A stretch of DNA of 24,050 nucleotides from the IMG/VR virus record IMGVR_UViG_3300037160_000022, positions 1-24,050 of that record, one strand, 5' to 3'. The DNA is from a virus. Every line of letters starts with the position of its first letter. The stretch's first letter is position 1. The position numbers and the translations under genes are program-made. The notes under the pieces are model-generated. The model saw nothing but the letters and a program-made list of their open reading frames with translations. It did no database searches and had not been told where the DNA came from. Below, piece by piece: positions 1,402 to 15,867 of this stretch.

Positions 1402-1429
1402 ACTATATAGGCTCGTCCAAACTTGTCAA
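1402..1429 (-). promoter_or_regulatory. Sigma70-like promoter for the 44-residue peptide, leaderless layout
   Basis: On the minus strand, -35 TTGACA (1429-1424) is a perfect consensus, the spacer is 16 bases and the -10 TATAGT (1407-1402) differs from consensus at one position. Six bases separate the -10 from the ATG at 1395, so the predicted first transcribed base is at or next to the A of the start codon. Confidence 0.72.
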
Positions 1430-1442
1430 GCACTATTCAATC

Positions 1443-1471
1443 TTGCAAGATAATTTATCTTAGCCTAACCC
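1443..1471 (+). promoter_or_regulatory. Promoter candidate for the portal unit
   Basis: TTGCAA (1443-1448), 17 bases, TAACCC (1466-1471), then 8 bases to the portal ATG at 1480. There is no Shine-Dalgarno sequence in front of the portal gene, so a leaderless or near-leaderless message is likely. The spacer contains the dyad AAGATAA-T-TTATCTT (1447-1461). The -10 matches only at its first positions, so this is weaker than the divergent promoter next to it. Confidence 0.45.
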
Positions 1472-1479
1472 TTTAAGCT

Positions 1480-3234
1480 ATGGCTAAAGCAGCGCCTACA
1501 ACTCCGAGTGCCTTCCCCTCGGCCATTAAGTATAAAACCCTTAAAGTCCGCAATGATGAATACAAGGCAGACTTTTGGGCACGCTGCAGAGCGCTTTATT
1601 CTGGAGGCCCGACGCTCCTAGAAGATCCTGAAGTTCTTAAGCACGTCATGCCGATGCATGGCTCGGAAGAGCAGTCAGTTTATAAAGAACGTTGCGCGAG
1701 AGCTTTCTATATTCCCTATCCAGGCTCGATCGTAGACAAGATCGTCTCTGAACTGATGGGTAAGCCAATTACATTCGACCTGGAGAATACTACAGACGAT
1801 CCAGGCGACGGCGGATCAGGGGAGCGCAGTCAACTCGATACAGAGCAAGAGAAGCATCTACCGCCGTATTACTCTGACCTGGTTAAGAACTGCAGTAAGG
1901 CTGGAGGAGCCAAGCTCAGCCTAGCGCAGTTCGCACGTAACCAGATGTTTACCGCGCTACAATGTAGATACGCATGGGCGCTCGTGGACATGCCTAAGGC
2001 CCCAGAGCGTGGCTACGCAAATCTCAAGAGCCAAGTAGACGCAGGAGGACTAGACGCCTACATCTGTCCCATTGATCCAGAGTGCGTCGTAGATTGGGAG
2101 ATGGGAGAAGATGGCGAGCTAGAGTGGGCACTTATTCAAGATAAGATCGCAAAGCGAGACAGCATCGCAGGCGATCGGAGCATAGTCACGTTGCGTTGGA
2201 GATATTATACTAAAGACGCATGGGCGATCTACGAGTATAAGTACGATATTACTAAGAAAGCTACGGGTCCTACAGATAACGACGAAGCGGCCCTAGTAGA
2301 TCAAGGTAAGCACACTTTCCAAAAAGTACCAGTGCGCAGACTCGTGCTCCCAGAAGGTCTTTGGGCCATGGGTAAGCTAGAAGCGATGGCACGCGCGCAT
2401 ATGAATCAGCGTAACGCTCTTTCTTGGGGTCAACTCAAAGCGCTTTATCCAGTTCCAGTGCTCTACGTCCAGAAGCCAGAGATCGGCAACGATGTAAGCG
2501 AAGACATGGGTAGAGCTAGCCAGACACATGGTCAAGGCTACATGCGTGTTCTAGCTGAAAACGATCGGCTAGAGTATTTCTCTCCTGACACTGCCCCTTA
2601 TAAGATCGCTATGGATGATCTGGCAGGCATTCGAGATGAAATGCACAGAGTTTTGCATCACATGGCGATGTCCGTAGATAACTCAGGGGCAGCGCTACAG
2701 CGTTCGGCAGACAGTAAGGCTATCGACCAGGCTGCAGCGTCTGTCATCCTTAGAGCGCTTGGTATGCTGCTACGTGAGCACCTGGAAGAGCTTTTGGGAC
2801 TGATCTCAACAGGCCGTAAAGACAACCTGGCATTCTGTGCACACGGCATGGATAATTTTGACGATGTGACACTGTCACAACTTGTAGTAGACGCTGTAGG
2901 TATCAGTGCTGTTGACATTCCGTCTGCTACTTTCCAAAAGAAGTTCAAGCTCAAGATCGCCAAACTGGCACTAGGTTCGGATGTATCTGAAGAGGACCTG
3001 GTAACGATCGCAGAAGAGCTAGAGCAGACGACAACACAAGACTCTTTCCAGGCCGAGCAAGATACTGCGATGGCTCAGCATGGAGCTAAGCAGGCTACTG
3101 CTAACGCCACAGCAGAAGACCCTACAGGAGCTTTTAAGTCTACTGGACCCCTAGAGACCAAGAGCCAAAAGAAAGAATTGGCGGATATGAAAAAGATGAA
3201 AAAGTCAAAGGCAGGCAAGCCCGGAGCTAAGTAG
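1480..3234 (+). CDS. Phage portal protein
   Basis: A 584-residue protein in the classic portal position, after terminase and before a Mu F-like head protein. The N-terminal half has the pattern of portal-like structural proteins (DUF4055-like by eye): an ADFWARCRALYSGG region, YKERCARAFYIPYPGSIVDK, then SELMGKPI. The middle includes the long conserved block AMARAHMNQRNALSWGQLK, consistent with the stem/wing helices around residues 305-325. The C-terminal 60 residues are charged and low complexity, ending in a Lys-rich tail. Twelve copies would form the ring at the head vertex through which DNA passes and to which the neck attaches. Its TAG stop overlaps the next GTG start by one base (TAGTG), so the two genes are translationally coupled. 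The family assignment rests on context as much as on motifs. Confidence 0.82.
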   Translation: MAKAAPTTPSAFPSAIKYKTLKVRNDEYKADFWARCRALYSGGPTLLEDPEVLKHVMPMHGSEEQSVYKERCARAFYIPYPGSIVDKIVSELMGKPITFDLENTTDDPGDGGSGERSQLDTEQEKHLPPYYSDLVKNCSKAGGAKLSLAQFARNQMFTALQCRYAWALVDMPKAPERGYANLKSQVDAGGLDAYICPIDPECVVDWEMGEDGELEWALIQDKIAKRDSIAGDRSIVTLRWRYYTKDAWAIYEYKYDITKKATGPTDNDEAALVDQGKHTFQKVPVRRLVLPEGLWAMGKLEAMARAHMNQRNALSWGQLKALYPVPVLYVQKPEIGNDVSEDMGRASQTHGQGYMRVLAENDRLEYFSPDTAPYKIAMDDLAGIRDEMHRVLHHMAMSVDNSGAALQRSADSKAIDQAAASVILRALGMLLREHLEELLGLISTGRKDNLAFCAHGMDNFDDVTLSQLVVDAVGISAVDIPSATFQKKFKLKIAKLALGSDVSEEDLVTIAEELEQTTTQDSFQAEQDTAMAQHGAKQATANATAEDPTGAFKSTGPLETKSQKKELADMKKMKKSKAGKPGAK

Positions 3235-4247
3235 TGGCAGATAATCTCAAAGCTATCTTAGAGCATATAAACGGCGAAGTAGGAAAGCTCTCTGTCACAA
3301 GCACGCATGCGTTAGGACCTGTTCTAGACGCTGCGGAGAAAGAGTTAACTAAAGACCTGGCTAAGTGGCATGCGCTAGCTAAGGGGGATGAAAAATTCAC
3401 GCCCCAGATGTATCGCAATGCGTTAATCCAGATTCGCTCTGCTCTTAATACTATTAGAGGCGATCTCGGAGATGACATTTCAGATCATATGAAAGCACAG
3501 GGCCATAAAGCTGCCGGACTTGCTACAAAGCATCTACACCAAGAAGTAGAACAGTTTTCACACATGTTCGAAGGCTCAGTAAGACACATAGCCCTTGAAG
3601 CGGCAGAAGTTCTAGCAGTAGGACAGAAAGCCGTCTGGAAGCGCTTTGATACTTCTGCAGCGCGCTACGCTGGCCAGGTAGGTAAAGATATCCAAAAGCA
3701 ATTAGCGATTGGTGTAGTCCGTGGCGAAACAATCGACCAATTAACCACGCGCCTAGCCAAGATGGGAGGTCCTAAAGGCTGGGTAAACGTTACCGGCATG
3801 GGAGTTAATGCCAAGGCTGAATATATTGCAGAGGGATTATTTCATAAGTACAGATACTATGCAGAGCGCTTAGTTAGAACAGAAGTCGTCAGCGCTTATA
3901 ACAGTTTTGCTCTCGACGGCATGGAGGAGCTTAACAAAGAAGATCCTGGCTACATGAAACGTTGGGACGCAGCTATTGATGGACGTACGTGTGTACTCTG
4001 CGCATCGTATGATGATCTAGTTCGTAAGCTAGATGAGCCTTTTAAAGACGGCATAGAGCAACCCCCAGCGCATTCAAATTGCAGATGCGCCCAAGTTATT
4101 TGGCGTAAAGAATGGACCGAGGCAGAGCATAGGCATGACGCAGGGCGTACAGATAGAGGCGTAAGAGGAGCACTAGATGGCAAAGCAGGCGGAGAAACTC
4201 CAGCACCTAAGGGCACAGGGATGCCACATAAGATCACTTATGATTAG
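3234..4247 (+). CDS. Minor head / head morphogenesis protein (phage Mu F / SPP1 gp7 type)
   Basis: A 337-residue protein starting at GTG, with GGAG seven bases upstream. The C-terminal part has the signature of the Mu F/gp7 family: RLVRTEVVSAYN (about 212-223), KRWDAAIDGRTCVLCASY (about 242-259) and PPAHSNCRC (277-285), the Cys and His residues of which form the conserved metal-binding-like core. The N-terminal 200 residues are mostly helical. These proteins sit near the portal inside the head and are needed for head assembly or DNA ejection. Gene order (portal then F-like) is the usual one. The last 40 residues are a polar, Gly-rich tail. Confidence 0.88.
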   Translation: MADNLKAILEHINGEVGKLSVTSTHALGPVLDAAEKELTKDLAKWHALAKGDEKFTPQMYRNALIQIRSALNTIRGDLGDDISDHMKAQGHKAAGLATKHLHQEVEQFSHMFEGSVRHIALEAAEVLAVGQKAVWKRFDTSAARYAGQVGKDIQKQLAIGVVRGETIDQLTTRLAKMGGPKGWVNVTGMGVNAKAEYIAEGLFHKYRYYAERLVRTEVVSAYNSFALDGMEELNKEDPGYMKRWDAAIDGRTCVLCASYDDLVRKLDEPFKDGIEQPPAHSNCRCAQVIWRKEWTEAEHRHDAGRTDRGVRGALDGKAGGETPAPKGTGMPHKITYD

Positions 4248-4261
4248 CGCAACTTGAATAC

Positions 4262-4270
4262 TTATCCACA
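4262..4270 (+). other. DnaA-box-like sequence (single)
   Basis: TTATCCACA matches the classical DnaA box exactly and lies in the short gap between the head protein and the phosphoesterase gene. Only one copy is seen here, so it may well be chance. Confidence 0.25.
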
Positions 4271-4290
4271 GTGACTCAGGGTTGATCCAC

Positions 4291-5322
4291 ATGTCTAACT
4301 CCAAACCTGAAGTATCTGGAATTGCTAGAGACATTTTAGAACGCAAGCTTAAGCAGGAGAATCAAGCCCTAAAGTCAAGGCTTTTAGACGCTCTTAAAGC
4401 TCTTGAGACCTGTCAATATGAACTTGACACAGCTGTAAAAGTTAAGAGAGCAAAAGAGCAAGTAACCCCGATCAAGCCTAGAGAGATCAAGTCAGGCGCT
4501 AGAGAAGCCACATGGGTAGCGCTCGCGTCCGATTTCCACATTGAAGAAACGGTAGAATCAGAAAAAGTAAACGGTGTCAATAGCTATAATCTGGCTATCG
4601 CAAGACATCGCGTAGAACGCTACTTCTCAGGTGTCGCTTGGCTGGTTAACTACCATTCAGACAGGTTCAAGCTCAGAGACGGCATTCTCTGGCTCGGGGG
4701 AGATCTCATCACAGGGTATCTCAGAGAAGAGAACCTGGAAGACAACGGCTGTTCTCCAGTCCAAGCCATCGCAAAACTGCAGACTTGGCTTAGCGACGGC
4801 ATTAGATATATCCTTAAGCACACTAAGACAGAAAAGCTAAGAGTTGTCTGTAACTCAGGTAATCACGGTAGACTAACTTACAAAGTCAGGCCAGCCACTA
4901 GAGAAGCTAACTCTATTGAATGGCTGCTCTATCAGTTCCTAGCCAGAGAGTTTGCTGATAACCCGAGAGTGGAGTTTCAGCTTCCCCACGGCGTACACAG
5001 CTATGCACAGATCTACAATTGGTCAGTTAGATTCACTCACGGCGATGCAGCTAAGTACGGAGGGGGAGTAGGAGGAGTATTCATCCCGATCAGAAAAGCG
5101 CTTTACAGGTGGAATACAGTAAGACACGCAGACTGGACCAATATGGGCCACTTCCATCAGTACTCCGACCTGAACGATTTGGTAATTAACGGATCACTTA
5201 TCGGCTATAACACGTTCGCGTTAGAAATCGGCGCTAACTACGAAGATCCTAAGCAGGCTTTCTATTTGGTAGACTCCAAACGTGGTAAAACGATGCCGGC
5301 CTCGGTCTGGGTCAAGGATTAA
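4291..5322 (+). CDS. Calcineurin-like metallophosphoesterase
   Basis: With the ATG at 4291 the protein has 343 residues. (A TTG three codons earlier is possible but less likely; AGGG precedes the ATG by about ten bases.) After a helical, coiled-coil-like N-terminus (residues 15-60) come all five motifs of the family in order: SDFHIEE (D81, H83), LGGDLITG (D138), SGNHGR (N191, H192), FTHGD (H250) and MGHFHQY (H287, H289). These ligate two metal ions and hydrolyse phosphoesters, such as nucleotides, DNA ends or phosphoproteins. The substrate cannot be told. Such an enzyme between the minor head protein and the scaffold is unexpected for a purely structural operon. It might act on DNA ends or on host nucleotide signals, but that is inference. 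The stop abuts the next gene. Confidence 0.85.
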   Translation: MSNSKPEVSGIARDILERKLKQENQALKSRLLDALKALETCQYELDTAVKVKRAKEQVTPIKPREIKSGAREATWVALASDFHIEETVESEKVNGVNSYNLAIARHRVERYFSGVAWLVNYHSDRFKLRDGILWLGGDLITGYLREENLEDNGCSPVQAIAKLQTWLSDGIRYILKHTKTEKLRVVCNSGNHGRLTYKVRPATREANSIEWLLYQFLAREFADNPRVEFQLPHGVHSYAQIYNWSVRFTHGDAAKYGGGVGGVFIPIRKALYRWNTVRHADWTNMGHFHQYSDLNDLVINGSLIGYNTFALEIGANYEDPKQAFYLVDSKRGKTMPASVWVKD

Positions 5323-5323
5323 T

Positions 5324-5755
5324 ATGCCTAAGAAACCTACTAAAGAACCTAAGGCCAAAAAGCCTAAATTCACTCAACTCAAAGAGCCTTTAAACAATAT
5401 GCCTTTGAACGTACTAACTCGCGGAGGCAGAGAATACACAACCCCTAACGGCATGCCTAGCAAAGTAAAAGTGCTTGGTATGGATTACGCCATTACATAT
5501 CACTCCAAGATCTATAGTACAGAAAAACAAATGCTGCGTGGAATAGTCATGTTCCAGCAACGCAGGATTTATTTGGATCCTAACCAGACTATTCATATAC
5601 TACGTGAAACTCTCTATCACGAGATGGCACATATTTACTACTCGACGTGGTGTGTACGCAGTCCTCATTTGCATAAGCTAACAGGCGCACAGATAGAAGA
5701 TCTATGCGACTGGTTTGCAGATTCAACATACGATCTAACTTCTAATAATTCTTGA
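5324..5755 (+). CDS. Zincin-like protein with HExxH motif
   Basis: Starting at the ATG at 5324, which has AAGGA five bases upstream, the protein has 143 residues. An upstream in-frame ATG (5282) lies inside the phosphoesterase gene and lacks such a site. After a Lys/Pro-rich N-terminus (about 20 residues) there is a compact domain ending in LYHEMAHIYYSTW (H99, E100, H103) followed by IEDLCDWFAD (E125, D129). This matches the active-site layout of small phage zincins related to ImmA/SprT-type metallopeptidases: HExxH plus a downstream acidic residue. Its target is unknown. It lies just before the scaffold gene, where many phages have the head-maturation protease, so a role in head processing is possible but unproven. 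Confidence 0.75.
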   Translation: MPKKPTKEPKAKKPKFTQLKEPLNNMPLNVLTRGGREYTTPNGMPSKVKVLGMDYAITYHSKIYSTEKQMLRGIVMFQQRRIYLDPNQTIHILRETLYHEMAHIYYSTWCVRSPHLHKLTGAQIEDLCDWFADSTYDLTSNNS

Positions 5756-5780
5756 TACTGAAATATTTGCACGCTACCAA
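5752..5780 (+). promoter_or_regulatory. Promoter candidate for the scaffold gene
   Basis: TTGATA (5752-5757), 17 bases, TACCAA (5775-5780), then 8 bases to the scaffold ATG, the same geometry as at the portal gene. The -10 is poor and the -35 overlaps the preceding stop codon. The ribosome binding site of the scaffold gene is weak. Confidence 0.35.
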
Positions 5781-5788
5781 GAGATACC

Positions 5789-6577
5789 ATGGCTCAAAAG
5801 ACCAAGACCCCCAAGAAACCGGACCCCAAAGATCCTGAAGATCAGGACGACGACACAACTGAAGACGACGACACTACCGAGGATGACTCGGCAGAAGCTA
5901 ATCGCCGAATCAACGCTATCGTCACGTCACGCGTTAATCGTGCCATGAAGGGCATGACAGCCCAGATGACAGCAATTCAAGAGACCCTTGCTAAGTTGTC
6001 TCAGCCAAAGCAGGAAGAACAAGACGACGAGCAAGACGATGAGCAAGAGCAGACACCTGCTAAGGGTAAGACAACCACTAAACTCGATCCTAAGATTTCA
6101 AAGCAGATGACCAAGCTAGAGCGCGAGCTCGCAGAAGAGCGCGATGCGCGCAAGAAAGCCGAGCTTGCTCAGGCAGAGCAGGCGGAAAAGCAGCGCACTA
6201 TGGAGATGCGCAACTCTTTTGACAGTGCTCTCCAAGAGCACGGCGTAACGGATCCTAAGCTCCGTCGCGCGGCACTCCTCACGCTTGAGCAAGATGGCGT
6301 GATGATTCGCGACGAAGACGGTAAAGTTAAGTTCAAGGGCGTAGACAAGTACGGTATCGAAACCAACTTCGATCCTAAGGCAGGCCTCAAGACCTGGGTA
6401 AATGGCGAAGGTAAGATTTTTGTTCCGGCTGTGGACGCAGGCGGATCAGGCCAAGGCGGATCACGCAATCAAGATTCTAATAAGATCACCAAAGGTGAAT
6501 TTGGTAAGCTCAGTCCGCAACAGAAGGCAGGTATTGATCTTGAAAGAGCCTCCACAGGGCTTCCCCCCCTGGAATAA
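5789..6577 (+). CDS. Capsid scaffold protein
   Basis: A 262-residue, highly charged protein. Residues 1-35 are Lys/Pro and then Asp/Glu/Thr-rich (DDDTTEDDDTTEDD). Residues 40-75 form a short helix, followed by a second acidic block (EEQDDEQDDEQEQ). A long coiled coil rich in Glu, Lys, Arg and Ala runs from about residue 100 to 145, and a more structured C-terminus follows. This composition and the place before the major capsid protein are typical of internal scaffolds that shape the procapsid and are then removed. The codon use (GCG, CGC, AAG, CTC) is more biased than in the flanking accessory genes, suggesting high expression. No protease domain is fused to it. Confidence 0.82.
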   Translation: MAQKTKTPKKPDPKDPEDQDDDTTEDDDTTEDDSAEANRRINAIVTSRVNRAMKGMTAQMTAIQETLAKLSQPKQEEQDDEQDDEQEQTPAKGKTTTKLDPKISKQMTKLERELAEERDARKKAELAQAEQAEKQRTMEMRNSFDSALQEHGVTDPKLRRAALLTLEQDGVMIRDEDGKVKFKGVDKYGIETNFDPKAGLKTWVNGEGKIFVPAVDAGGSGQGGSRNQDSNKITKGEFGKLSPQQKAGIDLERASTGLPPLE

Positions 6578-6602
6578 AGTAAACTTTTAGTTTAGTTTAT
6601 TA

Positions 6603-6633
6603 CACGAAGGTTACCTCACGGTTAACTTTCGTG
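6603..6633 (+). repeat. Long stem-loop after the scaffold gene
   Basis: CACGAAGGTTACC pairs with GGTTAACTTTCGTG around a TCAC loop, with one G-U pair and one bulged base. No T-run follows, so it is not a standard terminator. It could protect the 3' end of the scaffold message or be a processing site. Confidence 0.6.
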
Positions 6634-6667
6634 CGTTAGAGTAAAATCACGTACAGATAAATCTTGT

Positions 6668-6704
6668 AAGGCCAGATGTGTAATAGCATCCTGGCCTTAT
6701 TCTT
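6668..6704 (+). terminator. Terminator-like hairpin directly before the 6706 start codon
   Basis: AAGGCCAG (6668-6675) pairs perfectly with CTGGCCTT (6691-6698), extended inside by ATG/CAT with one bulge. The T-rich run ATTCTTT follows. It would reduce transcription beyond the scaffold gene. The next start codon ATG begins at 6706, immediately after the T-rich run. Confidence 0.55.
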
Positions 6705-6705
6705 T

Positions 6706-6885
6706 ATGGACAACTACACACCTACGGGCAAAGAAAAAGGTTCTCCAAACCCTGATGAAATTCAACAGATTACTGAGTTTGTTGAAAGAATGATCCCGGG
6801 CAGTGTAGACAATGCACACCCTCATCAAAATGCAGAAGATAGGCAAGTAGGCGCAAATCCTCACTCTGATCTAGTTAGGAAGTAG
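6706..6885 (+). CDS. Small hypothetical protein, 59 residues
   Basis: Not recognised. From the ATG at 6706 the protein is [18 protein letters not shown]... and is polar, with a helix around [13 protein letters not shown] and a His/Asn-rich end. An ATG at 6676 in the same frame falls in the loop of the terminator-like hairpin, and it would add ten residues read through the stem, so it is rejected. No good ribosome binding site is visible. The gene ends three bases before the fibre gene and may work with it. Confidence 0.5.
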
Positions 6886-6887
6886 CT

Positions 6888-8423
6888 ATGACACTTCCTG
6901 TTGTACCTTTAGGAACGCTTCTCTCTCAGATCAGAGGGGACGTGGATACTTGTACACAAGGTATACAAGGCATTCAGGGAGAGATCGGCTATAGCGGGAA
7001 CACTGGTCCAACAGGTCCAACAGGTCCAACAGGTCCAACAGGTCCGACTGGACCTAAAGGCGATACAGGCACTAATGGATCCACAGGCGCAACAGGATCA
7101 CAAGGAATCCAGGGCGCTACCGGATCTCAAGGTCCAAAAGGGGATACTGGAGATACAGGACCACAAGGCATTCAAGGGGCCACAGGTCTTACAGGTCCTA
7201 CTGGCGCGCAAGGTATTCAAGGCCCGACCGGACCAAAGGGAGATACAGGGGATACCGGCCCAACGGGACCGCAAGGTGTTCAGGGAACTACCGGGTCTAG
7301 TGGTACTGCTGGCTCTGCAGGTTCAACCGGACCGCAAGGTATCCAGGGAGCCACAGGTACAGCAGGTACCAATGGCGCTTCGTGGAGATCTGGCAGTGGA
7401 GTACCGAGCAATGCTACCGGAGTAGATGGAGATTTCTACTACCGCACTGCTACTAGTGACATTTATACGCGCACAAGCGGAACGTACTCGATTGTAGCCA
7501 ATATTCTAGGGGCTACTGGAGCACAAGGTATTCAGGGAACTACTGGAGCACAGGGTATTCAAGGGGCTACCGGCAACACTGGATCTCAAGGTATTCAAGG
7601 GGCTACAGGTACAGCCGGAACCAACGGGGCCACATGGAGATCGGGCAGCGGAGTACCGAGTAACGGGACCGGAGTAGACGGGGATTTCTACTATCGTACT
7701 GCTACTAGCGACATATACACACGTACAAGCGGAACATACTCAATCATTGCAAATATTCTAGGAGCTACTGGATCACAGGGTATCCAAGGCGTCACAGGCA
7801 ATACTGGGTCTCAAGGTATTCAAGGAGCGACGGGCAACACCGGATCACAAGGTATTCAGGGCATCCAAGGTGCTACTGGTAATACAGGCGCGCAAGGCAC
7901 AGCAGGAACTAACGGTACCAATGGCACTAACGCAGCGTCTACAGCACACCTAGCCACAAATAAGTCAATTGCTAACACACTTACGCAGGTAATAGGGTTT
8001 ACAGCTAACGCTAATACTCTTGCGGTAGGTACCACTATCAGATTTAAGGGCTATGGCCTACTTACTAATACTACATCAGCATCTACGTCCGTATTGACTT
8101 TACGGATCAACTCAGGGTCTCTAGGCGCGACCATCGAGGCCTCTTGGACAGTTGTACTGGGCACCACAGCGCGAACTAACTGCCCATTCGTAGTAGACGC
8201 ACAACTAGTAGTTATCTCTACAGGCTCAAGCGGAACAGCCTGGGGACTAATCCTAGTAGATCTTAACTCTACTACTGCCTTTGCTCTACCTAGCACGCAA
8301 GTTACTGCAGCAGTAACAGTGAACACTACTCAGAGCAACGTAGTAGAATTAACTTGCATTAGTGGAGCTACTACAACTACTTGGAATTTCATAACAGCTA
8401 CAATCGAATTAGTGCAGCCCTAG
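6888..8423 (+). CDS. Collagen-like fibre protein (probable head or tail fibre)
   Basis: A 511-residue protein with AGGAAG five bases before the ATG. Residues 1-25 are a short attachment region ([18 protein letters not shown]). Residues 26-360 are mostly Gly-X-Y triplets (GPT, GIQ, GAT, GDT), expected to form a trimeric collagen-like rod. The rod is interrupted twice by nearly identical 46-residue modules, starting [13 protein letters not shown] and [13 protein letters not shown] at residues 163 and 247, of the GDFYYRT...IYT type known from phage fibres. The last 150 residues are Thr/Ser/Val/Ala-rich with beta-strand patterns, consistent with a jelly-roll-like tip that could bind a surface or other ligand. 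Its place between scaffold and major capsid protein suggests a head fibre. Triplet repeats at DNA level make it prone to length change. Confidence 0.85.
7005..7040 (+). repeat. Four perfect 9-base tandem repeats (GGTCCAACA)
   Basis: Four exact copies of GGTCCAACA in frame, each encoding Gly-Pro-Thr, followed by a fifth degenerate copy. Their identity, compared with the varied codons used in the rest of the collagen region, suggests recent expansion by replication slippage. Confidence 0.9.
7374..7511 (+). repeat. Fibre module duplication, copy 1
   Basis: 138 bases encoding a 46-residue non-collagen module. It is repeated at 7626-7763 with the same length, about four amino-acid differences and many silent changes. 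The silent changes indicate an old duplication maintained by selection or repeated exchange. Confidence 0.88.
7626..7763 (+). repeat. Fibre module duplication, copy 2
   Basis: Second copy of the 46-residue GDFYYRT module. Compared with copy 1 it has Thr for Ser at position 3, Gly for Ala after PSN, and Ile for Val near its end. Confidence 0.88.
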
Positions 8424-8431
8424 GATCCCCC

Positions 8432-8626
8432 ATGAAAAGACTCTTCCTATTTTTGCTTCTATCTTCTTGCACCTGGCGCTATGGATTGAGCGCAGCACAG
8501 GTAACAGGGGTACCAGATATCTACTGTGAGCCTAAGAACACAGGATCTGAGATCTGCTACGAAGACTCAGAGCATTATTGGGTTTGCTCTGATACAGGAG
8601 GTAAGTGGTCATGCGTAAGAGCTTAA
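8432..8626 (+). CDS. Small Cys-rich lipoprotein
   Basis: From the ATG at 8432 (AGGAT six bases upstream) the protein has 64 residues. It begins MKRLFLFLLLSSC, a short signal sequence ending in a lipobox (LSSC) with the modifiable Cys at 13. Residue +2 is Thr, not Asp, which by the usual rule favours the outer membrane. The mature part has four more Cys (YCEPK, EICYED, WVCSD, WSCVR) that could form two disulfides. Phage lipoproteins of this size often block superinfection or receptor use, but no homologue is recognised. Its end overlaps the next gene by 16 bases, so the two exported proteins are made together. A start at 8381 inside the fibre gene is rejected because it would bury the signal sequence. 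Confidence 0.75.
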   Translation: MKRLFLFLLLSSCTWRYGLSAAQVTGVPDIYCEPKNTGSEICYEDSEHYWVCSDTGGKWSCVRA

Positions 8627-8976
8627 TTGTTGCTGCGCTACTATTAGCTAGTCCCGTACTAGCAGGGGAGAAACCGTCTTATATTCTTAAAGGCACGCAA
8701 GTGCTCTTTAATGAATGTGGACATGCTAAAGACATGCTTAAAGACATCTACAAGATCCACTTTGTAGGCAATACGCCTGTAGTAAATTACACAGAGTGGC
8801 AACTGGAGTATCAGTCAGACACCAGTTTTTTGATTGAGTACAAAGCAGCGCCAGATGCCTACACTCAGCTAGATCTCGTGTATTTCAAAGACATTAACAT
8901 GGGATACCTGACGCTTACAGAGACCACAGAGTACCGCGATGTCTGCTTTGATAGAATCCAACTAATTGAGAAGTAG
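8611..8976 (+). CDS. Periplasmic protein of unknown function with signal peptide
   Basis: From the ATG at 8611 (GGAGG nine bases upstream) the protein has 121 residues. The N-terminus MRKSLIVAALLLASPVLAG is a classic signal peptide with cleavage likely after Ala at about residue 18 (VLA-GE). The mature part has beta-rich character (YKIHFVGNTPVVNYTEWQLEYQ; SFLIEYKAA) and two Cys, in NECGHAK and YRDVCFD, which may form a disulfide. No family is recognised. It is paired with the overlapping lipoprotein gene and is out of place in a structural operon, so it is best viewed as an accessory (moron-like) gene acting in the host envelope. Confidence 0.72.
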   Translation: MRKSLIVAALLLASPVLAGEKPSYILKGTQVLFNECGHAKDMLKDIYKIHFVGNTPVVNYTEWQLEYQSDTSFLIEYKAAPDAYTQLDLVYFKDINMGYLTLTETTEYRDVCFDRIQLIEK

Positions 8977-8989
8977 ACCATTTAATTAC

Positions 8990-9019
8990 TTGATCTAAAC
9001 AACTGCTTTAGGGTAAGGT
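8990..9019 (+). promoter_or_regulatory. Promoter candidate for the Cys-rich protein / HNH pair
   Basis: TTGATC (8990-8995), 18 bases, TAAGGT (9014-9019), then exactly 6 bases to the ATG at 9026. The geometry matches the other leaderless candidates. The GTAAGG within it could also serve as a weak ribosome binding site if transcription starts further upstream. Confidence 0.45.
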
Positions 9020-9025
9020 ATTTGC

Positions 9026-9193
9026 ATGTCTAAAAAACTACCCGGAGAATTCTCAGATCGCGAGCATAAGAAACACTGCAAAGAGGCAGGGTGCTCACAT
9101 CCAGCAGTGCATAATCTTGGACCCTGGAAAGTCCAGGGATGGTGTGCTCTTTGCAGATCGATCGCTTTTTGTGGAAAGAAGTTTGGAGAGTGA
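9026..9193 (+). CDS. 55-residue Cys/His-rich protein preceding the HNH gene
   Basis: This short frame starts at the ATG at 9026 and ends at TGA 9191-9193. It encodes MSKKLPGEFSDREHKKHC..., with Cys at about 18, 23, 40, 43 and 49 and nearby His residues (GCSHPAVHNLG; GWCALCR), which looks like a small zinc-binding fold. The stop overlaps the GTG start of the HNH gene in GTGA, the usual sign of coupled translation, which supports both this frame and the HNH start. Function is unknown. It could be a partner of, or a control factor for, the nuclease, or simply an independent zinc protein. Confidence 0.68.
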   Translation: MSKKLPGEFSDREHKKHCKEAGCSHPAVHNLGPWKVQGWCALCRSIAFCGKKFGE

Positions 9194-9744
9194 AGGCCTG
9201 CTCTAAGTGTAAGCGGATTAAACCTTTTGAAGCTTTTGGTACAAATAATCAACAGACAAGCGGATTACAGCCATCTTGCAAAGAATGCGCAGCCGCTCTT
9301 GCAAAGGGGAGAAGAAAAAAAGTAACTGTAGAAGACTCTATAGAGATTACTTGCACAACCTGCAAAATTAACAAACTAGCAACGCTCTTTCCTATAGACA
9401 GAAATGCCAAGTACGGACGAAGACCTAATTGTAAGGCGTGTGAGTCTATCCGTAAAAGAGAGCAATATCTAGATCTACGTTTGTCAAAGCGGAATACTGC
9501 TCCTGTACCAAGGGGGTGCGAGATATGCGGTTGTAAGTTTCATACAGATGCCAAAAAGGGGGAGAAAGAAAAGAACACGCCCCATTGGGATCATGTTCAC
9601 GAGACAGAAATCTTTAGAGGATGGCTCTGTCATAACTGTAACTCTGCATTGGGGCAATTCGGCGAAAACATTAGGATTGTTGAAAAGGCCGTAGAGTACA
9701 TGCGCATAAGAGGAGCCAGTCCAACTAGGCCCCTTATAAAATAA
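9190..9744 (+). CDS. HNH endonuclease of the recombination endonuclease VII type
   Basis: With the GTG at 9190 the protein has 184 residues. (Frames starting at 9139 would overlap the preceding small gene much more.) Two N-terminal zinc knuckles repeat the pattern CxxC...GLxPxCKxC (C4, C7, C30, C33; then C55, C58, C81, C84). They are followed by the nuclease core: CEICG (C110, C113), HWDHVHETEIFRGWLCHNCN (D134, H135, H137, C147, C150, Asn151), and the helix LGQFGENIRIVEKAVEYM. This is the beta-beta-alpha metal fold of T4 endonuclease VII-like enzymes. Free-standing copies lying beside capsid genes often act as homing nucleases that cut a related phage lacking them. It sits just upstream of the capsid promoter. 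Confidence 0.88.
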   Translation: MKACSKCKRIKPFEAFGTNNQQTSGLQPSCKECAAALAKGRRKKVTVEDSIEITCTTCKINKLATLFPIDRNAKYGRRPNCKACESIRKREQYLDLRLSKRNTAPVPRGCEICGCKFHTDAKKGEKEKNTPHWDHVHETEIFRGWLCHNCNSALGQFGENIRIVEKAVEYMRIRGASPTRPLIK

Positions 9745-9756
9745 TCATGTGCTAAG

Positions 9757-9785
9757 TTGCAGAGCTAAAAAATCTCTTGTAGGGT
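9757..9785 (+). promoter_or_regulatory. Promoter candidate for the major capsid protein
   Basis: TTGCAG (9757-9762), 17 bases, TAGGGT (9780-9785). The predicted start near 9792 would give a leader of about 115 bases. The -35 is identical to that seen before the 13950 gene, the sheath gene and the reverse-strand HNH gene. Confidence 0.45.
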
Positions 9786-9798
9786 CAGATTTATCAAA

Positions 9799-9903
9799 CG
9801 ACCTTTAGGTCGCACAATTCTCCATATAGGAGTCTTGCACGTATCCACTCCACGTTTCAGAGGGTGTCGAAACTGCTAGATTACTATACTTAATTGGAGA
9901 ATT
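9799..9903 (+). promoter_or_regulatory. Structured leader of the capsid gene with possible SD-masking pairing
   Basis: A hairpin CGACCT-TT-AGGTCG lies at 9799-9812. Downstream, AATTCTCCA (9816-9824) is exactly complementary to TGGAGAATT (9895-9903), which contains the GGAG ribosome binding site of the capsid gene. AATTCTCCA can alternatively pair locally as CTCC-ATATA-GGAG (9820-9832). Two competing pairings would let the leader switch the site between open and masked. This is inference from pairing only. Confidence 0.45.
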
Positions 9904-9906
9904 CAC

Positions 9907-10983
9907 ATGGCATGGCCTCAAGTTGACCTAGGTAGGATCACATCTGCTCTCCCAACACTGTTGGCAGACAAAGTCATTCCTCAAATGAATAGAACTGCTC
10001 CTGAGTTGCAGCTTATTCCGTTTAAGGCTGGACAACACAAGAATGTCGTCTGGGACGTTGAGTTTAAGAACGCCTCGGAGTCCACCGACTCGTCGCTTGC
10101 TGAAGGCGCCGTAGTTTCGACATATGGTGATGATGACATCGTTCCGGCCACACTCAACTGGTGTGACTACTCGGAATCGATCGCTGTCACAGGTAAGGCG
10201 TTGTCGTCCGCTCGTGGTAGTGCTGGCGCTGCAGGTGGAGCCTCGGAGCTTCAAGACCTGTGGGTGCATAAGACCCTTGGCGCGATTAGACGCCTCGCGA
10301 AGAACCTTGGTCGTGATTTCTGGCAAGGTCCAGGCACGGGCACACGCATGACTGGCCTCTACGGCGGTGCGACGCTGACATCGGCTGCTCCTCTGAGCAA
10401 CGCTGGCGTGTACGCGGGTATTGATCGTGCGACCTACGCTGACTGGAAGGCGAACGTACTGCTTAATGGCGGTGTTACTCGTGCGCTCACGTTTGATCTC
10501 ATGCGCGACATGCGTAAGGCGATCTATGACGCGTGCGGCGAGATGCCCGATCTCATCATGTGCGACTCTGGTCAGCATGAAGCGTACGGTAAGCTCTTTG
10601 GTGACAATCGTCGTTATACACAAGAAGTGACCATCCGTGGTCAGAAGATTGTGCTCGACGGCGGTTACCGCGCGCTTGAGTTTGACGGTATCCCACTGAT
10701 CGCATCGGTTAACCATCCTGCTGGTTACATGACGTTCCTTAACACTAACTATGTTAAGCTCAGCGCGCTTGATGACATGCCGACTGAGGCGAATCGTGCA
10801 ACTGGTATGGTCCAACTGCAAGCGATGCCTGAAGAGCAACTGATGTCGGGTACCTGTCCGTTCCGTGCGCGCCTTAATCCGCTCGCTGTAACTGGTGATC
10901 TCTACCCCATTCAGATGATTCTCTATCCGCAGATCGTTGTAGAGCGCTGCAACGTCCACGGCGTACTTGGTGATCTGGCCTAA
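9907..10983 (+). CDS. Major capsid protein
   Basis: A 358-residue protein with GGAG seven bases before the ATG. It follows the scaffold region and starts MAWPQVDLGRITSALPTLLA. It has the length and pattern of an HK97-fold capsid protein: an N-terminal arm, an extended E-loop-like segment (WDVEFKNASESTDSSLAEGA), a helix of LQDLWVHKTLGAIRRLAKNL type, DLIMCDSGQHEAYGKLFG, then EFDGIPLIASVNHPAGYMTFLN and a beta-rich C-terminus. DLIMCDSGQHEAY and the FDGIPLI...FLN pair are typical A-domain features. Codon choice is strongly biased: Arg is almost always CGT/CGC, unlike nearby accessory genes that use AGA/AGG. This indicates very high expression and also creates a long open frame on the opposite strand. 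Confidence 0.88.
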   Translation: MAWPQVDLGRITSALPTLLADKVIPQMNRTAPELQLIPFKAGQHKNVVWDVEFKNASESTDSSLAEGAVVSTYGDDDIVPATLNWCDYSESIAVTGKALSSARGSAGAAGGASELQDLWVHKTLGAIRRLAKNLGRDFWQGPGTGTRMTGLYGGATLTSAAPLSNAGVYAGIDRATYADWKANVLLNGGVTRALTFDLMRDMRKAIYDACGEMPDLIMCDSGQHEAYGKLFGDNRRYTQEVTIRGQKIVLDGGYRALEFDGIPLIASVNHPAGYMTFLNTNYVKLSALDDMPTEANRATGMVQLQAMPEEQLMSGTCPFRARLNPLAVTGDLYPIQMILYPQIVVERCNVHGVLGDLA

Positions 10984-11013
10984 TTAAAGGCTACTCTGTA
11001 GCTCAGGTATAAT
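10984..11013 (+). promoter_or_regulatory. Perfect -10 (TATAAT) with hairpin between capsid and decoration genes
   Basis: TATAAT at 11008-11013 has a weak -35 TTAAAG (10984-10989) 18 bases upstream. The -10 lies in the loop of a stem formed by GTAGCTCAG (10998-11006) and CTGGGCTAC (11014-11022). RNA read through from the capsid gene would fold into this hairpin, while transcription from the promoter would begin near 11020 and lack the left arm. Confidence 0.45.
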
Positions 11014-11077
11014 CTGGGCTACATGTTGGTTCTTTAATTTCTTCTCTCTTTCCAATCTCTCTACAAGGATTATTTCT

Positions 11078-11896
11078 ATGACTGCAGTAGCTATTAAAGG
11101 ATCGTCTGGCGAGCCGATGGTCTTCACACAAGCGGAAGCCACAGCAGCACAGGCCACATGGATGTTCCATCTCTGTCTGTCTGCCGACGGTACAGACGCC
11201 ACAGGTCTTACTCCTGTAGTGTCTATCAGCAAGGCAGGCGCGGCATTTGCAGGCGCTGCAGGCACTGTGTCGGAGATCTCCGGGGGTTGGTACAAGATTG
11301 TATTTACCACGGTGGACCTTAGCACAATTGGTCAACTCGGTGTACACGTGGCTGTAGCCACTGCTGACACTTTGAATGTCAGTCACCAGGTTACGCTCCT
11401 TGACATGAATATTGCCACTGTGCCTCTGGCTACAGGTGCAATTGCCTCTACTACGTTCGCTTCTGGCGCTATGACATCCGCGGCTTTTGCTACGGATGCG
11501 ATTGCAGCAGCTGCTGTCAAGGCAGACGCAGTCACGAAGATCCAAGCCAATCTTGCTACGGCAACTGAAGTAGCTGCGGTGTTTGGTCCGACCAGCAACC
11601 TTACGATCGGCCTCGGTACATTGTCCGCAGACGGACACAGCAAGGGCGTATCGGCCAAGAATGCCAGCAAGGTAGTTCTTACCGTCACAGGCACGTGGGG
11701 CAGCGGTACTGCTCAGCCTGAAGTGTGCGCGGATCCTCTAGCCACAGTACCCGTCTGGGTTGCCTCGGGATCGTCTCTTACTGCCAACGGTAGCGAGACA
11801 ATCACAGGTCCAGTTAACGCTGTGCGCGTCACTCTCTCGGGATCGACTAGTCCGAGTCTCGTAGTTACAGCTGAAGTTCAGATTCCTAAGCCGTAA
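11078..11896 (+). CDS. Putative capsid decoration or minor structural protein
   Basis: A 272-residue protein with AAGGA eight bases before the ATG. Residues 1-100 form a beta-rich domain with FHLCLSADGTDATGL and EISGGWYKIVFTTVDLSTIGQLGVHV. The GGWY...T.D..T.G.L pattern occurs in many phage structural proteins. Residues 110-165 are low complexity (Ala/Thr/Ile, with repeated ATGAIASTTFASGAM-like units, likely a helical or beta-helical linker). The C-terminal 100 residues form another Val/Thr/Ser-rich beta domain. Its place directly after the capsid gene and its own well-made start site suggest a protein on the capsid surface. The exact role is unproven. Confidence 0.55.
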   Translation: MTAVAIKGSSGEPMVFTQAEATAAQATWMFHLCLSADGTDATGLTPVVSISKAGAAFAGAAGTVSEISGGWYKIVFTTVDLSTIGQLGVHVAVATADTLNVSHQVTLLDMNIATVPLATGAIASTTFASGAMTSAAFATDAIAAAAVKADAVTKIQANLATATEVAAVFGPTSNLTIGLGTLSADGHSKGVSAKNASKVVLTVTGTWGSGTAQPEVCADPLATVPVWVASGSSLTANGSETITGPVNAVRVTLSGSTSPSLVVTAEVQIPKP

Positions 11897-11906
11897 TTCA
11901 GTCTTT

Positions 11907-11967
11907 CTGTGGCTCCTTGTCAGTCTCCGGGGGGTCTCCTGGCGAGGGGTCACAGGATTTTTTATTT
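11907..11967 (+). terminator. Rho-independent terminator after the decoration gene
   Basis: CTGTGGCTCC (11907-11916) pairs with GGGGTCACAG (11946-11955) with two G-U pairs, enclosing a G/C-rich internal segment. The run ATTTTTTATTT follows directly. It is the best intrinsic terminator in the window and closes the capsid transcription unit. Confidence 0.72.
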
Positions 11968-11971
11968 GTAC

Positions 11972-12000
11972 TTGATTTCTATCTGCACTATTACTAGAGA
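11972..12000 (+). promoter_or_regulatory. Promoter candidate for the 12007 unit
   Basis: TTGATT (11972-11977), 17 bases, TAGAGA (11995-12000), then 6 bases to the ATG at 12007. An overlapping alternative is TTGTAC (11966-11971), 17 bases, TATTAC (11989-11994), giving a six-base leader. Either way the message would be nearly leaderless. It follows the terminator immediately. Confidence 0.5.
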
Positions 12001-12006
12001 AACCCT

Positions 12007-12402
12007 ATGGCACTACATAACGAAACAATGAAGTTCAGGAATCCTACACAGTATACGATTAACCTCGATGCTGTAGGACTGGATCCCGTTGGCCCCGGCG
12101 AGGAGTTTGACGTACCTTTGAGCATTGCTGCACCCGGACGGGGTGACGGAGGGAAGCGTACGAAGAGCGCACTTGAGTGTGTAGCTCCTCAGTTGGAGCC
12201 AGCGCTTAAATCGGATCATGCAGCATGGATGAGCATTCCAGTAGCGCCTACTCCAATTAGCAAGATCGTAAGCATCAGACAAGGCCCGATGCAAAAAGAG
12301 CCTCCGGGTGTTAAGGCACTCAGGGAAGCTCAAGCCAAGAAGGCTGCAGAGGCTTCACAGATGGCCCAGAAGCAAGTTTCAAAACCGACCGACCAGAAGT
12401 AA
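12007..12402 (+). CDS. Hypothetical structural-module protein, 131 residues
   Basis: Not recognised with certainty. The N-terminal part is a small beta-like domain (MKFRNPTQYTINLDAVGLDP-VGPGEEFDVPL), the middle contains SALECVAPQLEPAL, and the last 35 residues are a charged Ala/Lys/Gln-rich helix (VKALREAQAKKAAEASQMAQ). It starts the unit after the capsid terminator, with no usable ribosome binding site before the ATG. The phrase VGPGEEFDVP resembles small beta proteins found in phage head-completion regions. A role at the capsid surface or neck is a guess from position. Confidence 0.6.
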   Translation: MALHNETMKFRNPTQYTINLDAVGLDPVGPGEEFDVPLSIAAPGRGDGGKRTKSALECVAPQLEPALKSDHAAWMSIPVAPTPISKIVSIRQGPMQKEPPGVKALREAQAKKAAEASQMAQKQVSKPTDQK

Positions 12403-12411
12403 GGTTAGCTC

Positions 12412-12783
12412 ATGGCATTCACCAGCACAGAGAAGGCACGCATTAGAGAGCTTCTAGGCTGGGGTGCGCGCTTTTGGCAGCTGGAAACACGGCTGGAGAG
12501 CGCGATGTCGGCGGTAGAATTGAATCTACCAGATGAAACAGCGCTTATTCAGGCAACGCTGGTCAGTCTTACTGACATCGACACCATGATTACGGCCGCA
12601 CTGGGCACCGTAGGTGTTACAGGTGTTAGCACTATTCACTTAGATAGTGATCAAGGCATTGGCCATCTTAAATCTGAAGGCAGGCGCTTGGTCGAAGGCA
12701 TCGCAATAATCTTGCAAGTCAACATCAAGAAGAACTTTTACGCCAATGGTGGCATGCAGGGTGGACTCGTTAACTACGGATAA
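12412..12783 (+). CDS. Probable neck / head-completion protein, 123 residues
   Basis: Starts at the ATG at 12412 with TAAGG seven bases upstream. The protein is mainly helical (STEKARIRELLGWGARFWQ; SAVELNLPDETALIQATLVSLTDIDTMI), then has GRRLVEGIAIILQVNIKKNFY and a Gly/Asn-rich C-terminus. The place between capsid and tail-completion genes and the all-helical character fit a head-tail connector, but no family signature is visible. It is followed closely (five bases) by the next gene. Confidence 0.6.
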   Translation: MAFTSTEKARIRELLGWGARFWQLETRLESAMSAVELNLPDETALIQATLVSLTDIDTMITAALGTVGVTGVSTIHLDSDQGIGHLKSEGRRLVEGIAIILQVNIKKNFYANGGMQGGLVNYG

Positions 12784-12788
12784 ACAAC

Positions 12789-13073
12789 ATGCTCGCAATT
12801 GTCGCAAATCCAGGATCAGTATATACAGCAACTAGCGGATCGGCTGCTAATCTTAGTGGCATGATTTCTACTCGCTTCTACGTGCTTACATGCACTGCAG
12901 CTATTTTGTTTGCTCAAGGTGCAGCACCTACGGCTAGCGCTGCTAGTGGTAGTACTGTTCTCGCCGCAGGGGAGTCAATCCTTCTGGACGGCGGCAATGG
13001 TGCAGTAGTATCGGTGATTCAAGTAACAGCAGGTGGAGCAGCGACTCTTACACCTGTGTCTATTGTCCGGTAA
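12789..13073 (+). CDS. Small Ala/Ser/Thr-rich structural protein, 94 residues
   Basis: Not assigned. A beta-rich composition is indicated by alternating Val/Thr/Ser/Ala, with ISTRFYVLTCTAAILFAQGAAP and STVLAAGESILLDGGNGAVVSVIQVTAGG. The latter resembles short beta-barrel domains of phage decoration or neck proteins. There is no signal peptide. The central hydrophobic run is too short and broken by polar residues for a membrane helix. The start follows GGATAAAC from the preceding stop region, and the stop is two bases before the next gene. Confidence 0.58.
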   Translation: MLAIVANPGSVYTATSGSAANLSGMISTRFYVLTCTAAILFAQGAAPTASAASGSTVLAAGESILLDGGNGAVVSVIQVTAGGAATLTPVSIVR

Positions 13074-13075
13074 GC

Positions 13076-13516
13076 ATGCCGAACCTGATAGACAAGCTGA
13101 TTAACAAAGTAGATTCCGTACGCCAGAAGGCAGCGGATCGTTTTGGCTTGCCTGCACACGATGTCTATCGTGTAGTTCGTACGTATACCAGCGGAATCAT
13201 CGGAGACGGCGGATATACAGATCAGATAGATATTATCTTTCCGACACCTGCTGTTAAGTTCTCTGGCAAAGAGACATTTGAGCACGGCGGACGATTTGAT
13301 AATCGCGATCTGACTATTACAGAGATCTCTCTAACTTTCCAAGAGAACTGGCTCCAAGGAGATCCTAAGTCTCCTGGCCAAGAGTGTTTCTACAAACTCG
13401 TAGAGCGCAATGCACAGGGCGCAGACACTACCTACTGGATCTTGACATCAGTTCCAGAGGCCGTACGCGGTGAAGTATACTGGAAGTTGACACTCCACAG
13501 GTTTACTGTGTGTTAA
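13076..13516 (+). CDS. Probable head-tail joining protein, 146 residues
   Basis: Starts at the ATG at 13076, two bases after the previous stop. An N-terminal helix (MPNLIDKLINKVDSVRQKAADRFG) is followed by a beta-rich domain (VYRVVRTYTSGI; QIDIIFPTPAVKFSG; DLTITEISLTFQENW; YWILTSVPEAVRGEVYWKLTLHRF). This helix-then-beta layout is common in neck/stopper proteins, but no diagnostic motif is seen. Its TAA stop forms part of the palindrome TTAA at 13513-13516, which on the other strand is the stop of the reverse-strand zinc protein gene. Confidence 0.58.
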   Translation: MPNLIDKLINKVDSVRQKAADRFGLPAHDVYRVVRTYTSGIIGDGGYTDQIDIIFPTPAVKFSGKETFEHGGRFDNRDLTITEISLTFQENWLQGDPKSPGQECFYKLVERNAQGADTTYWILTSVPEAVRGEVYWKLTLHRFTVC

Positions 13517-13845
13517 ACCATCTTAGCTAGTTCCGCTCGAAGTTCAACCAGTTGAGCTTTACGAATAGCAATCTGCTTTTCAGTTTGACTACGGCCAAAC
13601 TTAGCTGAGGCCAGACGAGTTTCGCTATCGGCGATGATTCTGATAACCTCATCAATATGAGCCTGCTTACGATTGTAGGCAGATTCTTTGGTGTCTTCCA
13701 TATACTCACCCCTACCACCACACTTGTAACAGACGCGGAAACCCTGATTAGCATTCCAGTTACCAGTACCAGCGCAACGGTTACACTCGATAACGATCAT
13801 CTTGCCGAGTTTTGTGTTCCGGGTGCCTAGAATCGTCTTCGCCAT
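13513..13845 (-). CDS. Reverse-strand protein with DnaJ-like zinc motif, 110 residues
   Basis: Starts at the ATG at 13845 on the minus strand. Residues 19-47 are IECNRCAGTGNW...VCYKCGGRGEY, i.e. two CxxCxGxG-type half-motifs (C21, C24, C39, C42) like those in the DnaJ zinc-binding domain, but only one pair of motifs instead of four. The remaining 60 residues are a charged coiled-coil-like helix (ADSETRLASAKFGRSQTEKQ...LVELRAELAKMV). Small phage proteins with one DnaJ-like zinc centre are known but their roles are mostly undefined. It has a promoter-like TTGCGC, 17 bases, TAACTT, 6 bases, ATG, and no strong ribosome site (only GAAG close to the ATG). It is convergent with the gene before it and divergent from the gene after it. 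Confidence 0.78.
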   Translation of the reverse strand: MAKTILGTRNTKLGKMIVIECNRCAGTGNWNANQGFRVCYKCGGRGEYMEDTKESAYNRKQAHIDEVIRIIADSETRLASAKFGRSQTEKQIAIRKAQLVELRAELAKMV

Positions 13846-13851
13846 GTCTTC

Positions 13852-13880
13852 AAGTTAGCAACTCACCTGACTAAGCGCAA
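13852..13880 (-). promoter_or_regulatory. Promoter candidate for the reverse-strand zinc protein
   Basis: On the minus strand: TTGCGC (13880-13875), 17 bases, TAACTT (13857-13852), then exactly 6 bases to the ATG at 13845, matching the leaderless geometry of the 1395 and 15014 genes. Confidence 0.5.
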
Positions 13881-13914
13881 TGGAATAATCTAACTATTTC
13901 ACAACTACTGGATC

Positions 13915-13943
13915 TTGCAGGTAAATTATCTCTACTTTAATCT
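13915..13943 (+). promoter_or_regulatory. Promoter candidate for the 13950 gene, leaderless layout
   Basis: TTGCAG (13915-13920), 17 bases, TAATCT (13938-13943), then GGCCAA and GTG at 13950. No Shine-Dalgarno site is present. The element faces away from the promoter of the reverse-strand zinc protein, 34 bases away. Confidence 0.55.
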
Positions 13944-13949
13944 GGCCAA

Positions 13950-14483
13950 GTGTCTACGATTACCTTAGAGGCAGGCCAGCTAGGGGCGCGTCTGCGATCC
14001 GATGCCAATGGCGCACCTAAGGCAGTGCAGAGAGCCATGTTTAGTGCTGGCCAGAGGGGCAAGGCGCTACTTGTCAAAGACTCCCCCGTAGACCGAGGCA
14101 TTCTTAGAAACGCTTGGAAAGTAGTTAGGCTTTCAGATGGCGTAGAGATCGTAAACGATCAGCCTTACGCAGGCATTATAGAAATGGGCGCAAAGCCATT
14201 CAAGATGTCAGCAGAAGGTAGGAAAGCGCTAGAAGGCTGGGTCTACAGAAAGATTCTACAAGGCACGATCACTCTTAAGCCCCTTAAAGGCAAGGCTCGG
14301 AAGAGCGCCAAAAGCAGACTGGAGCAACAAGCCGAGTCTATTGCTTATCTAATCGCTAGAAAGTTTGAGCGTGTAGGCATGAAGGGCAAGCGCTTTGTCT
14401 ACAACAATCTAGACAAACTTGCAGAGCTTATGGACGGGGAGATCAATCGTTTTTTAAGCAGTTTCTTTGACAGATCTGCTTAA
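13950..14483 (+). CDS. HK97 gp10-like tail completion / neck protein
   Basis: A 177-residue protein with a GTG start six bases downstream of a predicted -10. The central segment KDSPVDRGILRNAWKVVRLSDGVEIVNDQPYAGIIEMGAKP (about residues 43-83) is the recognisable core of the HK97 gp10-like family: a Pro-Val-Asp-x-Gly-x-Leu-Arg block followed by a strand pair and YAxxIExG. The C-terminal half is basic and helical. These proteins form the interface between connector and tail in many phages. Its 3' end overlaps the reverse-strand HNH gene by 30 bases. Confidence 0.8.
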   Translation: MSTITLEAGQLGARLRSDANGAPKAVQRAMFSAGQRGKALLVKDSPVDRGILRNAWKVVRLSDGVEIVNDQPYAGIIEMGAKPFKMSAEGRKALEGWVYRKILQGTITLKPLKGKARKSAKSRLEQQAESIAYLIARKFERVGMKGKRFVYNNLDKLAELMDGEINRFLSSFFDRSA

Positions 14484-15014
14484 ATAACTGGCAGCAGAGT
14501 CTAAAAAAGCAAGAGATTCAAAAAAATGTCCCAGACCTATATTGCAATAATGACAAAGTAGCCCTCTAACACATTTCCCGCAAGATCGATTTTTCTCAGG
14601 ACAACATCTATGATCATGGTCAATGTGCCACGATCCGCTAGTACCTGGATCTCCTTTTTTACAAATAGCACAGCTGTTATTCTGTGCAGTCAATAAGGAA
14701 GTGTATTGTTCTATGCTAATATTATACTTCTGGCACCTAGTCTGAAGTTTTACAGCGGGATCCTTTTGGTATTCTATGGCAAAGTCCAGTACTTTTCGTC
14801 TCCATATAGGATCAGTATGATATCTAGCTTTATTCCTACTTAGAGTTTTTGCGTTATAAACACTTCTCTCTTCACTGGACCAATTAAGTCTCCTAATAGC
14901 AGCCTTCTCTGTCTCGCGTTTTCTTCTTTGTACTTGACAATCTTTACAAAGGGCAGAAGCGGAGCTAATATCACGTAAATTAGGACATTTTTTACAGAGT
15001 AATCGTTTTGCCAC
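14454..15014 (-). CDS. Reverse-strand HNH endonuclease (endonuclease VII type)
   Basis: A 186-residue protein read on the minus strand from the GTG at 15014. An N-terminal zinc knuckle (C7, C10, C23, C26) is followed by a basic helical segment, then IEQYTSLLTAQNNSCAIC (C115, C118), SWHIDHDH (H130, D132, H133, D134, H135), a Cys-containing insertion, and VRGLLCHYCNIGLGHF (C154, C157, Asn158). This is the beta-beta-alpha metal fold of phage endonuclease VII-like nucleases, often free-standing homing enzymes. It lies antisense in the tail-completion region. Its C-terminus runs 30 bases into the gp10-like gene. It has its own promoter-like element and no Shine-Dalgarno site. It differs in sequence from the HNH gene at 9190, so the two are not recent copies. 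Confidence 0.88.
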   Translation of the reverse strand: MAKRLLCKKCPNLRDISSASALCKDCQVQRRKRETEKAAIRRLNWSSEERSVYNAKTLSRNKARYHTDPIWRRKVLDFAIEYQKDPAVKLQTRCQKYNISIEQYTSLLTAQNNSCAICKKGDPGTSGSWHIDHDHRCCPEKNRSCGKCVRGLLCHYCNIGLGHFFESLAFLDSAASYLSRSVKETA

Positions 15015-15020
15015 ATATGT

Positions 15021-15048
15021 AGAGTATCCAAAAATTATTACTCTGCAA
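15021..15048 (-). promoter_or_regulatory. Promoter candidate for the reverse-strand HNH gene, leaderless layout
   Basis: On the minus strand: TTGCAG (15048-15043), 16 bases, TACTCT (15026-15021), then ACATAT and GTG at 15014. The spacer and -10 also form a dyad, AGAGTA with TACTCT. Confidence 0.55.
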
Positions 15049-15767: not shown

Positions 15768-15791
15768 GACCATAACGGTAGCCCAACCGCA

Positions 15792-15836: not shown

Positions 15837-15867
15837 GAACCATAGCGCTCGTCTATAAAGGTCTAAA

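Follow-up and report, generated by a model that had tools for sequence, protein, structure and literature searches.

Predicted leaderless promoters at a fixed distance from the start codons of inserted genes in an uncultured contractile-tailed phage

Known leaderless systems and the phage analysed

A TANNNT motif that precedes the start codon by about 12 bp is a published mark of leaderless bacterial genes (Zheng et al. 2011, PMC3160421). In Deinococcus-Thermus, TANNNT beside the ORF drives leaderless mRNA in a spacing-dependent manner, and a -35 element raises the output (PMC12340547). Among phages, most middle and late mRNAs of the Thermus phage phiYS40 have been described as leaderless (PMC3594737), and a phage lambda gene with a leaderless message is cited in PMC3160421.

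The window, that is the whole stretch of DNA analysed here, is an IMG/VR record in full (24,050 bases) from an uncultured tailed phage. It carries the late region of a contractile-tailed phage, with genes for portal, head morphogenesis, exonuclease, collagen-like tail protein (made up of Gly-X-Y repeats, 6888-8423), capsid, neck and sheath. Gene calls were home-made, and a simple gene finder missed the genes at 1395, 9026 and 15014. No close relative was present among the named phages compared, Alicyclobacillus phage MMB025 being the only one with a similar sheath (25% identity). The close relatives are the contigs G001 and G003 (67,968 and 66,134 bases) and the 11-kb L003, with capsid identity of approximately 82-83%. 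To find the host, relatives of sheath and capsid were sought in bacterial genomes, and two genome scans gave no matches. No phage sigma factor was found among the scanned subset of G001 and G003 proteins.

At five gene starts of the window a TANNNT element ends six bases before the start codon (gap 6, where the gap is the number of bases from the -10 end to the start codon), which places its first T exactly 12 bp upstream, as in the TA-led bacterial genes (PMC3160421). Those genes are cellular and come from named phyla, whereas those described here belong to a phage, and a TTG -35 is added. The Deinococcus-Thermus element (PMC12340547) adjoins the ORF in the same way; it was tested by experiment there and is predicted from the sequence here. 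With phiYS40 (PMC3594737) the phage would share a whole set of leaderless messages, so that such a set, regarded as new in the sequence-only reading, has a precedent. Yet in phiYS40 it comprises most middle and late transcripts and here only genes at insertion points: most gene starts in the window have no gap-6 promoter, and capsid and sheath have leadered promoters, 100-121 bases upstream. For lambda a single case is cited (PMC3160421), as opposed to the recurring set described below.

Promoter-like elements six bases from the start codon

To examine the spacing, TTGNNN-N16-18-TANNNT-gap-[A/G]TG was scanned on both strands of the whole window, with the other gaps as internal control. The comparison with shuffled sequences proposed in the sequence-only reading gave a clear excess: gap 6 had 7 matches, other gaps averaged below 1, and dinucleotide shuffles gave a mean of 1.16 at gap 6, none of 200 reaching 7. 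Two of the matches, at a GTG inside the sheath gene (16084) and at a 13-codon ORF (181, minus strand), lie outside the five sites, a number close to chance expectation. Among the 34 listed gene starts, of which 32 are valid (8431 and 9191 are not start codons), five have the pattern at gap 6 (Table 1), and each of the 40 other gaps (0-5 and 7-40) has zero matches. Relative to the rate at all 1,282 ATG/GTG codons this corresponds to P of about 6e-12, or about 3e-10 after multiplication by 41 gaps, values that leave uncorrected the freedom in the choice of hexamer forms, which were picked after inspection. All five sites show a TTG -35, a spacer of 16-18 and a TANNNT -10, with a purine as the predicted first transcribed base.

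Table 1. Coordinates of promoters, genes and leaders; positions refer to the window unless a contig is named
Feature	Position	Strand	Remarks
44-aa small membrane-type protein	1261..1395	-	opposite strand, between upstream genes and portal
Predicted leaderless promoter TTGACA-16-TATAGT, gap 6 to ATG at 1395	1402..1429	-	sequence scans
Portal gene, weaker candidate for a near-leaderless promoter, TTGCAA-17-TAACCC, gap 8	1443..1471	+	
Scaffold gene, weaker candidate for a near-leaderless promoter, TTGATA-17-TACCAA, gap 8	5752..5780	+	
Predicted leaderless promoter TTGATC-18-TAAGGT, gap 6 to ATG at 9026	8990..9019	+	sequence scans
Accessory cassette: 55-aa protein (9026-9193) and overlapping Endonuclease VII-like gene (9190-9744)	9026..9744	+	
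Leadered promoter of major capsid gene, TTGCAG-17-TAGGGT, gap 121	9757..9785	+	same position in G001, G003, L003
Claimed -10 of 12007, TAGAGA	11995..12000	+	unsupported
110-aa zinc-ribbon-like protein	13513..13845	-	opposite-strand insertion between two core genes
Predicted leaderless promoter TTGCGC-17-TAACTT, gap 6 to ATG at 13845	13852..13880	-	sequence scans
Predicted leaderless promoter TTGCAG-17-TAATCT, gap 6 to GTG at 13950	13915..13943	+	sequence scans
Core gene, tail completion/Neck1-like	13950..14483	+	
186-aa Endonuclease VII-like gene	14454..15014	-	opposite-strand insertion
Predicted leaderless promoter TTGCAG-16-TACTCT, gap 6 to GTG at 15014	15021..15048	-	sequence scans
Leadered promoter of tail sheath gene, TTGCAG-17-TAGCGT, gap 100	15739..15767	+	same position in G001, G003, L003
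Capsid and sheath leaders (n=8), window	9792-9906, 15774-15867		
Capsid and sheath leaders, L003	3804-3912, 10000-10106		
Capsid and sheath leaders, L017	19768-19872		
Capsid and sheath leaders, L018	4999-5095		
Capsid and sheath leaders, L021	2092-2202	-	
Capsid and sheath leaders, L020	17461-17560	-	

In the close relatives (G001, G003 and L003) the test was made with gap 6 fixed beforehand, and five plausible starts were obtained against a mean of 0.85 per other gap (Poisson P 0.0018). Gap 7 had four. All six gap-6 matches in G001 and G003 lead into ORFs of at least 59 aa, including a 656-aa nuclease gene. The G003 ortholog of 9026 has TTGACT-17-TAACTT-AGATGT-ATG and lacks a Shine-Dalgarno core; its spacer and -10 have diverged and the six-base gap is kept. 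In the same contig, a 190-aa gene divergent from portal (TTGCGC-16-TAGATT, gap 6) occupies the place of 1395 in the window and is a different gene. We regard this recurrence as the cleanest test, of moderate strength. Distant relatives gave no gap excess when the -35 was required. In one of them, G006 (L027-L030, 61% GC), 11 of the 92 gene starts have TANNNT at gap 5, 6 or 7, as against about 0.5 for each other gap, and a -35 is mostly missing; this is the published TA-led leaderless signature.

That genes are read from promoters farther upstream and the -35/-10 matches are meaningless, picked out by selective reading, is a view favoured by the discovery of the pattern after inspection and by generic scans: the sigma-70 consensus scan of the region gave 19 vs. 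22.4 matches, no excess. The fixed position relative to start codons is the only exceptional feature of these promoters. It is the count of five at one gap against zero at 40 control gaps, together with the repeat in relatives at a preset gap, that makes chance very improbable, in agreement with the earlier judgement of the exact spacing; moreover, three of the genes are opposite in strand to the late operon and need some promoter. Slightly less probable still is an artefact in which ribosome sites resembling TAAGG, or the TAA or TAG stop codon of a preceding gene, mimic a -10 at that distance. This is true for 12412, where TAAGGT overlaps the stop of the upstream gene, with similar cases in L019 and L023, and it is possible for 9026, where AAGG lies at Shine-Dalgarno distance and, as noted earlier, could also serve as such. 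Yet all five sites are intergenic or divergent, each has a spaced TTG -35 as well, and four have no Shine-Dalgarno core. The missing core does not significantly distinguish the sites from the majority of genes, as had been proposed, since it is also missing at 14 of 29 other starts (Fisher P 0.34). Contamination by stop codons of upstream genes was the reason why TANNNT alone was dropped as a test. A TAA or TAG inside a -10 at gap 6 is also an in-frame stop, and this makes an ORF call more likely; the bias applies equally to other gaps that are multiples of 3, and no comparable excess was observed at them.

A more serious alternative, though still unlikely, is that the promoters are real and initiation is shifted by a few bases, giving leaders of 1-5 nt. 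It would fit the four gap-7 starts of the close relatives, the scaffold gene of L003 (TTGCAA-17-TAGCGT, gap 7) and the gap-8 sites of portal and scaffold in the window, against which stands the window itself, where gap 6 has five sites and gaps 5 and 7 are empty. The gap-8 claim for these two genes was borne out as to position, and the sites match only under a relaxed -10 (TAACCC, TACCAA). The portal of G003 can be read as TTGCGT-18-TATGTC at gap 8. For scaffold, three relatives show a -35 of the TTGCA type about equally far from the start, and the promoter of this gene is likely near-leaderless, less exact than the gap-6 sites.

The reading that best accounts for the five sites is that they are sigma-70-type promoters, quite likely giving leaderless mRNAs and probably read by the host RNA polymerase. 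With the -10 ending six bases before the start codon, the first transcribed base would be the A or G of that codon, and ribosomes would bind the 5′-terminal AUG or GUG to start; transcript starts, polymerase and leaderless translation are what we infer from the pattern. The site of 1395 is the best sigma-70 consensus match in the window scan (11/12), and a weight matrix built from the leadered sites ranked the gap-6 site best for 13950, 13845 and 15014, but not for 1395 or 9026. The sequence-only reading had listed six sites. All are present and five were upheld, with their spacing recurring in two related phages, but 12007 was dropped because the final T of its -10 is missing and its orthologs carry purine-rich AGAGAAAGATTCCC-type tracts and no -10. 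Between genes 11078 and 12007 (11905-11970), and before the G003 ortholog of 12007, there is also a conserved TCTCCGGGGGGTCTCC element with a T-rich run after it, which may be a terminator or an attenuator.

Leadered promoters and leader RNAs of the capsid and sheath genes

A scan for TTGCNN-N17-TANNNT in the window, G001 and G003, with L003 studied by inspection, revealed that in all four a strong copy precedes both the capsid and the sheath gene, with predicted leaders of approximately 95-115 nt. Since the TTGCA -35 occurs also in these promoters, at the same places in related phages, the TTGC...TANNNT form looks genuine for the group, and the phage appears to use one promoter type in two layouts, leaderless and leadered. 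Some distant relatives have TTGACA-like promoters upstream of the capsid gene, which would fit the housekeeping polymerase of the host. In the capsid and sheath promoters, a dyad of the AGAGA...TCTCT type is often present between the -35 and the -10 (9763-9779 and 15745-15761; in L003 upstream of 3791 and 9987), and might serve a late regulator as operator.

The eight capsid and sheath leaders start with two hairpins with CA between them, and the 5′ hairpin pair ends in GCACG/AACGC. Of the pair cells in the eight leaders, 98% are standard, and five of seven pairs change on both sides; these figures lean towards the structure, because the hairpins were already in view when the sequences were trimmed and the structure was drawn. 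No shuffled leader matched the covariation score, and shuffled and slid controls were far below. A covariance model run over 543 kb of this and related phages recovered only the eight leaders, which are its training set, and, in L036 and L038, weak matches immediately before the capsid gene. No Rfam family matched the leaders. The Shine-Dalgarno region is a possible alternative pairing partner of the second hairpin region; permutations of leaders as good as the cognate pairing numbered 3 of 40,320, and 3 of 576 within gene type, the cognate arrangement being counted in both. Such pairing hints that the leader could act as a switch on capsid and sheath translation, and it may represent a new regulatory RNA.

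Insertion points and expression of inserted genes

All five sites of the window lie at insertion points and serve four accessory units and one core gene, 13950, from a split operon. The genes 13845 and 15014 are without counterparts in relatives, in which the core genes on either side follow one another with little or nothing between them; those flanking 15014 are contiguous in G001, G003 and L003. The 13950 orthologs of G001 and G003 closely follow their operon partner and have no gap-6 promoter, and in the window the 13845 insertion separates 13950, with its own predicted promoter, from this partner. Contiguity in the relatives at both places shows that the window carries the insertions. The 9026/9190 cassette is present in G003 and was not found in G001 or L003. 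No orthologs of 13845 were detected in viral contigs, and no relatives were found of the 44-aa protein. Leaderless starts as a trait of Endonuclease VII-like genes were ruled out, as three other relatives have AGGAGG sites.

The set had been placed inside the late operon. Instead, it is located on opposite-strand or inserted accessory genes and one cut-off core gene, with capsid and sheath leadered. The promoters would serve units unable to rely on the late operon, namely the opposite-strand insertions (1395, 13845 and 15014), the endonuclease cassette and 13950. The simplest account is that inserted or cut-off genes have to be transcribed on their own, and that a promoter set directly against the start codon takes the least space.

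For the expression of inserted genes in a phage late region this offers a rule: a promoter of about 35 bp, with no ribosome-binding site needed. Such genes can be misplaced or missed when annotation relies on codon usage or on Shine-Dalgarno signals. A broader and tentative proposal, which we consider possible but doubtful, is that accessory genes inserted in phages of this group bring along, or evolve, compact leaderless promoters as a general means of expression independent of the late operon, and core late genes keep structured, possibly regulated leaders. If true, two separate translation regimes would operate in one phage.
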